NCBI RefSeq assembly: GCF_950295315.1
Contig: NC_080175.1
Span: forward strand, 81,376,066-81,440,065
Direction of reading: 5' to 3'
Length of the DNA stretch: 64,000 nucleotides
Origin: Erinaceus europaeus
Taxonomy: Eukaryota > Chordata > Mammalia > Eulipotyphla > Erinaceidae
Under the pieces are notes generated by a model, which was not told where the DNA came from, did no database searches, and saw only the letters and a program-made list of their open reading frames with translations. Positions 3,725 through 27,495 of the stretch are shown piece after piece (position 1 is the stretch's first letter; every line of letters begins with the position of its first letter). The position numbers and the translations under genes are program-made.

Positions 3725-4315
3725 GACAGAGCAATTGTTGTCACAAGTTTTCAACCTCTCTTTTTTTACAACAGGTATCTGTACACTGATCCCACCAACA
3801 AATTCTTATACATGTTTTAACTCAATTTTCCCAGAATTACTTGTTGAAAAGACTTTTTTTTTTGTCATTTAATGTTTTGGCCTCTTTTCAAATATTAGTT
3901 GTCTGTATGTGTGAGGGGTTATTGCTGGGATCTCTTTTCTATTCTACTACCTGTGTGTCTATTTTGGTTCCAGTACCAGGAAGTTTTGATTACAAAACTG
4001 TGAAGTGAATTTGAAGTCAGGAAGTGTGATGCTCCCATTCTTGTTCTTCTTAGAATTGATCTGGCAATTCTTAGGATTTTCTAGTTCCAGGTAAACTTGT
4101 GCAGATTCTTTTTTATTCCTTTGAATATGGTTGGTGGAATCTTGACAAGAATTGCATTAAATCTGAATTTGGCTCTGTGTAGAATGGTTATTTAAACAAT
4201 GTTAATTCTTCCTATCTATGAGCATGGGGTATCTTTCCAATTCATTGTGTCTTTTTCTATTTCCTTTAGCAGTGACTCTTAATTTTTGCTGTACAGTGAC
4301 ATATTTGAGTAGTAT
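3725..4315 (-). mobile_element. L1 ORF2 fragment, reverse transcriptase C-terminal part
   Basis: Antisense L1 signature: GTACCAGGAAGTTTTGATTAC, then GTGTGATGCTCCCATTCTTG, then CTTAGGATTTTCTAGTTCC. These are complements of the ORF2 region after the RT fingers/palm. Reading frames are broken. Confidence 0.8.
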
Positions 4316-24559: not shown

Positions 24560-24653
24560 AAAAAATTTTATATTTATTTATTTTCCCTTTTGTTGGACTT
24601 TTTTATTTTTAATTGTATCTTTTTTTTTTTTTTTTTTTTTTTTTGCCTCCACG
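24560..24653 (-). mobile_element. SINE-A, left part (split by ERV)
   Basis: Poly(T) at 24620-24644 followed by GCCTCCACG, the 3' tail of an antisense SINE-A. The rest of the same SINE resumes at 27179 with TCCACGGTTATTGCTGAGG. TCCACG is present on both sides and is the 6-bp target duplication of the ERV at 24654-27178. Confidence 0.93.
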
Positions 24654-24944
24654 TGTTGTTAAAGTTCAGGGCTCTAGTAGGCCGGGCTAGCTTCGCGGAG
24701 GCAGACGGAGATGACCAGAGACACACGTCTGGGTTGAGAAGCTACAGTTTAATCTTTATTCATGAGCGGGCAAATCACCACACCATGTGCTTCCCCATCT
24801 TTCTCCCTCAGCGGCTGCCGCTGGGACCTCTGGAACTACCTAGCATGGGGGCGGGGAGAAAGAGGGGCGCGAAACTAGCAAGGGCCAAACCAATTCTCTG
24901 AGAGGTGGGGGGAAGGAGACCAAACCAATATGAGGCAACCAACA
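24654..24944 (-). mobile_element. Left LTR of the ERV-like element
   Basis: On the minus strand it begins TGTTGGTTGCCTCAT and ends CTTTAACAACA (291 bp). Shared with the right LTR are ATTGGTTTGGTCTC, GAATTGGTTTGGCCCTTGCT, a TTCTCCCCGCCCC GC box, CATGAATAAAG (polyadenylation signal) and CCGCGAAGCTAGCC. The U3/R middle differs from the right LTR. Confidence 0.85.
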
Positions 24945-24968
24945 ATTCCCCCTTGTTGTTTTTTTTTA
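24945..24968 (-). other. Polypurine tract of the left arm
   Basis: On the minus strand AAAAAAAAACAACAAGGGGG then AAT directly precedes the LTR TGTTGG. This is the expected position of the plus-strand primer in reverse transcription. Confidence 0.75.
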
Positions 24969-25121
24969 ACTAAATGACCACAGTATCAGGGGTTTGGGGT
25001 GAACAGAAACCTATATTGTACAGGCATTTTCAAAAAAGAAACTGGCACAAACATGGAGGAACATGTAAGCAGGCAACGAGCAACAAGAACCAGTGTGCTG
25101 CCAAGGGGAGGCCTGCGGGGG

Positions 25122-26704
25122 ACCTTTTCTTTTTTTAAATAAAAACATCCCCACAGCATTTATTGTCATCTGGTTAATAACAGGGTAATCAAAACAATAT
25201 GAGCAAATGTTTTAGAAGCACATGCCCTACAACACATATAAAAAAAAACAGAAGTGACAAATGGCACCCACGTGGACCTGACCTGTGCATCTCTCAGATA
25301 ACTGAAGACAATTTGGCTACCTATGTACAATGGCCTTCTCTTCTGCTTGTGAAGAGATCTCCAAAGGCCTCTGCCCTGTCTTCACGAGACTGTTTCTGTT
25401 TCTGGAACATTTCGTTCTGTGCCACACTGTGGTTTCCGCCCAATGCCAGCCTGCAGGAGCCCAACGCCAGCCTGCATGAGCTGGCTTTCCGCCGCGTAGT
25501 GCGGGGCATTGGGCGTGGGCTCCCTCCATGTTGCTCAGTCGCCGGGAGCAGGGCAGCAGACATGGCATGGCGGGCAAGGTCCATCATGGCTGCCACCCCA
25601 GGGCACCTCGCCCGTGCCTTCTGCACGGTTGGCCCGCCCGCCCTCCTGCTATGAAGTCTGGACAGATCCCGGACCACCTGGAAACCGCGGGTTCCCTGCC
25701 GAAACTGGGCCCCCTGGCAAGATCCCAAACTTGGGTCTGAAGGCAGACAAGCTAGAATACGCAGAGATTCATCCAGAGTTCACAACCTACAATTCCTATA
25801 AGTAGAGCTGCGCGGGAGGCCACCTCCGAATGGTGGTCCCCCCAACAACTAAGACAGTACAGATCTAAATTCATGTTTAAAATGAGATGTCTTTGTAACA
25901 AAGGTTTCTCTCCTTGTGTATTAAAGACCATGTTTACGTGTGTGTTTAAAGTTTGGTAAACATTAACTTTAAGGTTAAAAATGTAACTTTAAAACTATAT
26001 TCTTACCAGACAGAGTTAAATGAAAAAGGTTTTCAACATAGTTCTCATAAAGGTAAAATTAACTTACATTTAAAGTCTGAGTTAAAAATTAGTTAAAAAT
26101 CAATATATTTTAACTAAGTTAGTCTAAAAAAAAAAACAAAAAACCCTGTGCACACCTAGGGTGTGTCTCCATCTTAAATGGGTGTAACAAAAGGTTAAAT
26201 AGACTTATTGATATGTAAAATTCTCAAATTCCTTCTCAATTAGATTGCACTATGGTTATGCTAATGATTGTAATAGAGTTATCAATTGTGATAAACTTCT
26301 AACCTGCTACAAGTTTTGTTTCATAGTAAGTAAATTGCAGCTGTCAAGTTCTCTACAGAAAAGCGGAATTCCAGCAGCTGACCTTCCTCATACAACGTTC
26401 CACCCCCTGGCATTCTTCCGTGGACATCTGCTTTAGTTAGACTGGCATTTCTACTGGACTCACTGGTACAACTCTTGGACACTTTGCACAAAACTAGCAG
26501 CTTCCCTTTATGCTGCTGGGTTTCTCAAACACTGACTGGAGCCAGCTGCCTTGGGACTCTAGGCCATACCTCCCCATGCTAGGTAATGCCCACAGGAAAA
26601 AAAATGCCGTTGAGGCAAGTAACGCCCCCCAGAGGCATAAGAAGGCCCCAGAGGCAAGAAATGTTTTTTTTAGCTGATAAAGTTTTGCCCACAGAGGCAA
26701 AAAC
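25122..26704. other. Non-duplicated spacer of the ERV-like element
   Basis: Three parts. (1) 25122-25480 on the minus strand resembles an mRNA 3' end: AATAAA at 25164-25159, then an A-rich run ~20 nt on. (2) 25480-25740 is CpG-rich, contains a 20-bp direct repeat (CCAGCCTGCAGGAGC / CCAGCCTGCATGAGC) and encodes a plus-strand tail ending KLEYAEIHPEFTTYNSYK before a stop at 25803. (3) 25850-26704 is AT-rich, then carries repeated GAGGCA units (26608-26700) up to the right arm. I recognise no retroviral or cellular protein in it. Confidence 0.6.
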
Positions 26705-26870
26705 ACCCCCCTTAGGCCTTCCCTTGGCAACACACTGGTTCTTGTTACTCACTTACATGTTCCTCCATGTTTGTGCCAGTTTCTTTTTTGAAAATGCCTG
26801 TACGATATAGGTTTCTGTTCACCCCACACCCGTGATACTATGGAATTTAGTTAAAAAGAAAAGGAAGAAT
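26705..26870 (+). other. Right inner arm and polypurine tract
   Basis: 26705-26850 repeats the left inner arm (24969-25121) in inverted orientation with few differences: ACACTGGTTCTTGTT, TTACATGTTCCTCCATGTTT, TTTTTTGAAAATGCCTGTAC. The purine tract AAAAAGAAAAGGAAGAAT (about 26853-26870) then precedes the LTR. Confidence 0.85.
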
Positions 26871-27178
26871 TGTTGTATGCTTCACATTGGTTTGGTCTCG
26901 CTCCCCTCCCCCCCGCCAGGAGAATTGGTTTGGCCCTTGCTAGTTTGGCGCCTCTCCTTCTCCCCGCCCCCTATGCTAAGTAGTTCAAGAGTTCTTGGCA
27001 TGGCGGCGAGAGAAGAAGGTTGCAGGACAGATCTGTGTGGTGATTAGTTTGGGTTAGTTTATGAATCATTGTTCATGAATAAAGAAATACAGCTTCCTGG
27101 CCCAGCCGTGTGTCCACGAGTCTCTGTTTACTGCCGCGAAGCTAGCCTGGCCTGCTGGAGCCCCAAACCATAACAACA
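26871..27178 (+). mobile_element. Right LTR of the ERV-like element
   Basis: 308 bp, TGTTGTATGCTTC to CCATAACAACA. Carries GAATTGGTTTGGCCCTTGCT, a CCCGCCCCC GC box, CATGGCGGCGAG (YY1-like site), the polyadenylation signal AATAAA (about 27079) and GCCGCGAAGCTAGCCTGGCC. Confidence 0.88.
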
Positions 27179-27495
27179 TCCACGGTTATTGCTGAGGCTC
27201 AGTGCCTGCACTACTAATCCACTGCTGCTGCTCCTGGAGGCCATTTTTCCCATTTTTGTTACCCTTGTGGCCCTTGTTGTTGTTATTGTGGTCATCACTG
27301 TTGTTGTTGTTGGAGAGGACAGAAAGAAATGGAGAGAGGAGGGGAAGAAAGAGGGGGGAGAGAAAGACACCTACAGACCTGCTTTACTGCTTGTGAAGTG
27401 ATCCCTCTGCAGGTGGGGAGCTAGGGGGCTCCCATTGGGATACTCATGTTTGTACTATGTGCTTTTAACCCAGTGCACCACCACCCAGTCCTTCT
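27179..27495 (-). mobile_element. SINE-A, right part (split by ERV)
   Basis: Continues the SINE interrupted at 24653: TCCACGGTTATTGCTGAGG, TTGTTGTTGTTGGAGAGGAC, CTCTGCAGGTGGGGAGC, ending CACCACCCAGTCC. Confidence 0.93.

Follow-up and report, generated by a model that had tools for sequence, protein, structure and literature searches.

Introduction

Retroviral DNA with inverted long terminal repeats (LTRs) has a history: Olsen and Swanstrom reportedly found, in 1985, defective retroviral DNA with inverted LTRs in cultured cells and ascribed it to aberrant reverse transcription. Inverted terminal repeats also occur in DIRS-type elements, which integrate by means of a tyrosine recombinase and without target duplication. 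In normal reverse transcription, as set out in PMC5651808, the minus strand copies the primer-binding site (PBS), whereupon its 3' end anneals to the copy of the PBS carried by plus-strand strong-stop DNA; according to the same paper, reverse transcription can start on both RNAs of one particle. LTR elements can in addition capture mRNA by template switching, as reviewed in PMC5408686. This review describes LTR-mediated retroposition as leaving a host mRNA piece in LTR-element DNA, with an A-rich or short-similarity join and an integrase-type duplication, the new copy gaining its LTRs in the normal way.

Here we analyze an insertion in the hedgehog Erinaceus europaeus, located within 64,000 nucleotides of contig NC_080175.1 (positions 81,376,066 to 81,440,065), the whole of which we call the window. 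Compared with the inverted-LTR viral DNA said to have been seen in the 1980s, it is found in a genome assembly, it has target duplications, it is one of several events, and it is broken at the expected minus-strand terminus. It has inverted terminal repeats in common with DIRS-type elements, but unlike these it carries a 6-bp duplication and complete conventional LTRs, and none of the 10 open frames tested encoded a recombinase. The features listed above for LTR-mediated retroposition recur here, except that the two LTRs are inverted instead of direct and that the second switch is joined head-to-head to another copy, giving two U5 ends. Among the titles and opening lines of abstracts searched, older subscription work lying outside this scope, we found no description of integrated U5-U5 head-to-head proviruses.

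Results

Layout of the insertion

The insert spans 2,525 bp (24654 to 27178 of the window) and has the hexamer TCCACG at both edges (24648 to 24653 and 27179 to 27184). Its LTRs are opposed, with the U5 ends facing outward. The left arm begins with a full-length LTR on the minus strand (LTR-A, 24654 to 24944), and the right arm ends with a full-length LTR on the plus strand (LTR-B, 26871 to 27178). Inward of LTR-A, also on the minus strand, come a polypurine tract and 3' internal sequence of the A template (24945 to 25124); after about 180 bp the likeness to the family ends in an A-run. At this A-rich junction (25125 to 25136, the A-run being on the minus strand), the viral A-run meets the poly(A) site of the host gene SNRPE, the final 126 nt of whose 3' UTR up to that site lie at 25132 to 25257, again on the minus strand.

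The right arm lies entirely on the plus strand. It starts with ACA, the last three nucleotides of U5, and the AA that stands between U5 and PBS (25257 to 25261), so that the SNRPE segment and the U5 remnant overlap by 1 nt at 25257. A PBS of the tRNA-Lys type, recognized by comparison with sibling copies, occupies 25262 to 25279; the non-coding internal region, the inner 3' region and the polypurine tract of the B template fill 25280 to 26870. Since family copies elsewhere run LTR-internal-inner-LTR in one direction, the stretch from 25257 to 27178 is complete from the PBS on: it is a full element from PBS to LTR-B that lacks only the 5' LTR, the break lying 3 nt within U5.

Aligned in inverted orientation, the two arms match at 75% across 495 columns (E 1e-89). 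A purine tract lies internal to each of the LTRs, and the inner flanks of both arms are alike over about 170 bp at 90%. These results bear out a sequence-only reading of the window, which had placed opposed LTRs with outward U5 ends at the same positions and strands and had noted in each arm a polypurine tract and some 150 bp of matching inner sequence. It had overlooked the subfamily difference between the LTRs, the SNRPE origin of 25132 to 25257 and the completeness of 25257 to 27178 from its PBS on. That reading had also claimed a clean TCCACG duplication inside a SINE, and the duplication is indeed exact: when the flanks are joined at TCCACG, they form one unbroken SINE tail. A BLAST search of the joined flanks within the window returned 27 hits, two of which were the flanks themselves, and the insertion point was crossed by six of the 27, all six in other SINE copies. 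Given that the SINE is unbroken once the flanks are joined at the duplication, the simplest reading is that a single DNA molecule integrated once. We observe directly what the pieces are and how they are ordered and oriented, where the breaks lie, the duplication, and the return of this layout elsewhere, described below.

An SNRPE mRNA segment inside viral DNA

The segment at 25132 to 25257 matches 17 other places in the genome. One of them (L040) is the last exon of the gene, preceded by a splice-acceptor-like boundary, and four (L039, L041, L042 and L043) are retrocopies with upstream coding sequence free of introns; the remaining places were read over shorter stretches. The retrocopy L039 (G000:C4:123617558-123618492) has kept the full 92-residue SmE frame, and its protein matches small nuclear ribonucleoprotein E (PDB 3cw1, E 9.6e-58).

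Relative to the gene, the segment in the insert shows 3 substitutions over 126 aligned bases and a shorter T-run. It stops at the poly(A) site common to the four retrocopies, with AATAAA 22 nt before the A-run. A switch at the SNRPE poly(A) site is likely, if not strictly proven, as the gene has five A's there and the viral partner an A-run.

We detected no viral sequence (E ≤ 0.01) beside any of the 17 other SNRPE-like places, of which 150 to 400 bp were read per side; the last exon of the gene is one of them, with 400 bp read on each side. As none of the 17 has a viral flank, the chimera of SNRPE and virus appears to be present as a single copy in the genome. The locus thus holds an mRNA-derived segment inside LTR-element DNA, while the 400 bp read on each side of the source exon are free of viral sequence, as in an LTR retrocopy.

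The element family

Ordinary copies of the family measure about 2.2 to 2.8 kb and consist, in one direction, of an LTR, the internal region seen in the window from 25257 onward, the inner region and a second LTR. At the PBS they read ..TTAACAACA-AA-TGGCGCC.. with small variations. The LTRs start with TG, end with CA and are about 300 bp long, and 6-bp target duplications are found in the insert and in its siblings. In a test on ordinary loci that let the end positions shift, an exact 6-bp duplication was present in 5 of 10 two-LTR loci and in 5 of the 9 loci that were treated as single LTRs. A search with LTR-A yielded 37 other loci, 20 of which comprised 10 with two direct LTRs, 8 with a single LTR, 2 partial copies and none in head-to-head arrangement. 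Two loci that had seemed to form an inverted pair, L037 and L038, are in fact separate proviruses side by side. The 3' LTR of L038 (G000:C1:13469000-13473900) is an LTR-B, whereas its 5' LTR resembles LTR-A and sits on a long branch; L025 (G000:C88:21391900-21401700) has inner region ahead of its 5' LTR, like a tandem provirus.

The PBS of the insert matches tRNA-Lys(CTT) only in part. A scan with tRNA 3' ends gave no clear PBS match, and the site was found by comparison with siblings, one of which (L121) carries a whole tRNA-Lys(CTT) copy after U5-AA, as expected of a tRNA-Lys primer.

We did not find coding capacity in the 10 open frames tested out of 61: Pfam gave no viral family at E ≤ 5 and no recombinase, returning three weak non-viral matches below their cut-offs. 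With no PDB match in three frames either, the spacer was rejected as a coding region. An exact 27-base scan of viral_contigs gave no match, and two sub-threshold Rfam hits were taken as chance.

By the usual class criteria, we take the family to be a non-autonomous class II (betaretrovirus-like) endogenous retrovirus (ERV), with which it has in common TG...CA LTRs of about 300 bp, a 6-bp duplication, a tRNA-Lys primer and a purine tract. The copy in the window differs from such a family in that no 5' LTR stands where one is expected, and in that it has a second 3' end, which is inverted.

The arms belong to different LTR subfamilies

In a tree of 44 LTR rows (42 of them different), from loci chosen by likeness to A or B, LTR-A fell into a clade of 33 rows and LTR-B into one of 11 rows, both with 100/100 support. 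That the two LTRs sit in different, fully supported clades suggests that two RNA templates of different LTR subfamilies likely gave rise to the insert. By one and the same method, the LTR pairs of nine two-LTR copies were 91 to 96% identical and the pair of the insert 81%. An exception is the forward element L038, with an LTR pair of 80.5% identity, and for this reason unlike LTRs do not by themselves prove two templates per particle. Within the insert the inner region is less diverged than the LTRs; because this also holds for two sibling insertions described below (L056 and L057), the contrast is weaker evidence than the clades. It seems unlikely that the LTRs were identical at insertion, as they have diverged by 25% against a change of about 2.5% in the SNRPE piece (computed on 121 SNRPE sites, 126 being aligned elsewhere).

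An ordinary provirus has direct LTRs that are identical at birth, whereas those of the insert are inverted, 75 to 81% identical and members of separate clades. It is extremely improbable that the locus is an ordinary provirus rearranged after integration, be it by inversion of an LTR, by nested insertion or by recombination between neighbors. Divergent proviruses do adjoin, as L037 and L038 show, and the LTRs of the latter are unlike although they point the same way; rearrangement, however, would have to leave the outer ends and the duplication exact, and it does not account for LTRs that are no birth pair, for host mRNA sequence inside the element or for the return of the same break at unlinked sites. 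The sequence-only reading had already judged simple post-integration inversion unlikely, and its case is strengthened by arms from different LTR clades, set against pairs of 91 to 96% in nine proviruses.

Sibling insertions break at the same site

A motif from the inner region occurs at 4,146 places in the genome at ≤2 mismatches. Among the first 100 of these, two pairs lie close together in inverted orientation (1.6 and 2.2 kb), and every other pair is at least 14 kb apart. Both pairs, L056 and L057, are head-to-head with U5 outward and have exact 6-bp duplications (GATAGA and GTACCT, respectively). Their complete arms are broken 7 nt inside U5, and their truncated arms start in the inner region (L056) and at about position 677 of the internal region (L057). 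Thus the break lies at the U5/PBS boundary in three of three insertions, the window insert, L056 and L057, all of them found without reference to the PBS. At their junctions, overlaps of 1 to 3 nt were seen by eye.

We then took a census of PBS sites that lack the normal U5 bases at -10 and -11, and read all 47 places. At 18 of them the LTR was an ordinary one of the same family whose U5 end was altered, and two (L065 and L068) had direct LTR-like sequence, of other families to judge from its end and poly(A) signal. L121 (G000:C102:94469740-94469992), counted separately though it also has such an LTR, shows after its 5' LTR a complete tRNA-Lys(CTT) copy and then the PBS again, with AA and 5 nt of U5, as though plus-strand synthesis had continued across the entire primer. 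At five places, representing three junctions (L077/L087/L120, L079 and L081), coding-ERV sequence in direct orientation was joined to the family PBS; L077, L087 and L120 have one junction in common, so this recombinant seems to have multiplied. The coding-ERV joins carry gag, protease and reverse transcriptase frames, among others. Three places (L061, L067 and L070) were left unclassified.

The other 18 places represent 14 distinct junctions with inverted viral-type sequence. Twelve are clear, namely the window insert, L056, L057, L069, L078, L088, L091, L094, L096, L118, L119 and the group L072 to L076, taken as one; in L088 and L091 the upstream sequence read contains inverted integrase frames. 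L083 and L090 are doubtful, because their likeness of 71 to 77% is also seen upstream of the ordinary-looking L068, which has no head-to-head signs; for L083, the expected duplication was absent from the 961 bp read upstream.

For eight junctions both ends were followed, with U5 at each end and, counting the window insert, an exact 6-bp duplication in seven; L096 matched at five of six bases. The duplications were TACATT in L069, CCCAAC in L078, CCTTTC in L094 (left U5 end 3 bases short) and CTGGGT in the L072 to L076 group (right end intact in L075 and 3 bases short in L072). L083, L088, L090, L091, L118 and L119 are those of which not both outer ends were seen. The genome therefore holds at least six further head-to-head insertions besides the one in the window.

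In the copies read, the complete arm was broken 0 to 7 nt inside U5, a range that is partly imposed, as the census pattern misses breaks more than 7 nt into U5. The pattern also selects PBS breaks, so an unbiased test of where the break falls comes only from the window insert, L056 and L057. The truncated arms reach to R-U5 (L096), to parts of the LTR (L094, L118 and L119, the last two not traced to their outer ends), to the inner region (L056) or to the internal region (L057, L069 and L078), and this ladder is as expected if they were unfinished minus strands.

An arm from another family was found in L069, the L072 to L076 group, L088 and L091. The right arm of L069 (G000:C5:81560380-81563240, with L098, L099 and L124) switches element inside the internal region; the second element has its own PBS-like site and an other-family LTR, and the exact 6-bp duplication is still kept. 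Together with the clade split in the window, these arms bear on the idea of a snap-back, whereby the 3' end of a minus strand would fold on its own strand and copy it, both arms then stemming from one RNA. The arms of L056, which with 94.6% identity in the LTR and 99.3% in the inner region resemble ordinary LTR pairs, could indeed come from one template. Arms of another family and of different LTR clades are not expected from it, so snap-back is not the sole route, and for the window element we consider it very unlikely.

The layout could also belong to a stable non-autonomous family that replicates in inverted form, an option of the sequence-only reading that did not hold up and that we regard as highly improbable. 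What could speak for it is a set of five copies of one head-to-head junction (L072 to L076), 94 to 98% identical and lying within 1.2 Mb of contig C8 (G000:C8 32.99-34.15 Mb). All five, however, have the left duplication CTGGGT, which recurs at both right ends read (L072 and L075); a common duplication indicates host duplication of one event and not new insertions, and the group is likely a host segmental duplication. The remaining junctions and their duplications all differ from each other, and no second SNRPE chimera was found among the 17 other SNRPE-like places. On the sequences compared, the head-to-head layout is an accident that keeps recurring in one LTR family, not a lineage.

Discussion

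The evidence favors the integration of a head-to-head product of reverse transcription, as the sequence-only reading had suggested. We propose that the window insert likely arose from a failed second-strand transfer, in which the 3' end of the finished minus strand B was joined to minus strand A in the same particle. One particle would have packaged two RNAs that belonged to different LTR subfamilies, along with an SNRPE mRNA of the host. Having reached the A-run, about 180 nt past the polypurine tract, minus strand A would have changed templates to the poly(A) end of the SNRPE mRNA and copied some 126 nt, while minus strand B would have run off its template at PBS, AA and 3 nt of U5, presumably because the 5' part of that RNA had been degraded. 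The two 3' ends would then have been joined with an overlap of 1 nt. For this step we prefer reverse transcriptase extending one end on the other; host end joining is possible, and the overlaps of 1 to 3 nt are equally compatible with end joining and with template jumping. When a finished minus strand is joined 3'-to-3' to an unfinished one, a U5 end results on each side, and such a product may have been processed by the family integrase and inserted with the usual 6-bp duplication. Exact 6-bp duplications point to an integrase. L121, with its tRNA copy joined to PBS, AA and 5 nt of U5, provides independent evidence for a minus-strand end of this kind, in a different misjoining.

A possible but doubtful alternative starts from two separate unfinished viral DNAs, each supplying a U5 end to a shared integrase complex; their free inner ends would have been linked by host end joining, either ahead of integration or after it. 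The exact duplications and the two U5 ends would fit this course equally, and overlaps of 1 to 3 nt are usual for end joining. By itself, however, it gives no reason for the complete arm to end at PBS, AA and a few nucleotides of U5, and if that end is the natural minus-strand terminus, the intermediate becomes identical to the one we prefer. Moreover, in L079, L081 and L077 the same end is joined to coding-ERV sequence in direct orientation, and these joins suit template jumping better.

Failed second-strand transfer would place the insert among the aberrant products of reverse transcription, a known kind. Here such products recur, they are present in a genome assembly with target duplications, and they map to one replication step. 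We see an even chance that this holds more widely: failed second-strand transfer would have a regular second outcome, in which the minus strand ending at the PBS is joined to a partner and the resulting two-U5 DNA is accepted by integrase, and genomes would preserve, as readable fossils, traces of virions with two templates, of cDNAs left unfinished and of host mRNA packaged along with them, probably for many retroviruses and LTR elements.

The intermediates of reverse transcription do not last long and are difficult to observe; if the model is true, insertions of this type freeze them. The complete arm would then mark the end of the minus strand before second-strand transfer, the truncated arm would record the progress of the second minus strand, and the pairing of LTR clades would reveal the joint copying of two different RNAs. 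Questions about second-strand transfer and co-packaging, and about how two U5 ends are used in vivo, could be put to the test with genome sequence, and host mRNA would have a further route into proviruses.
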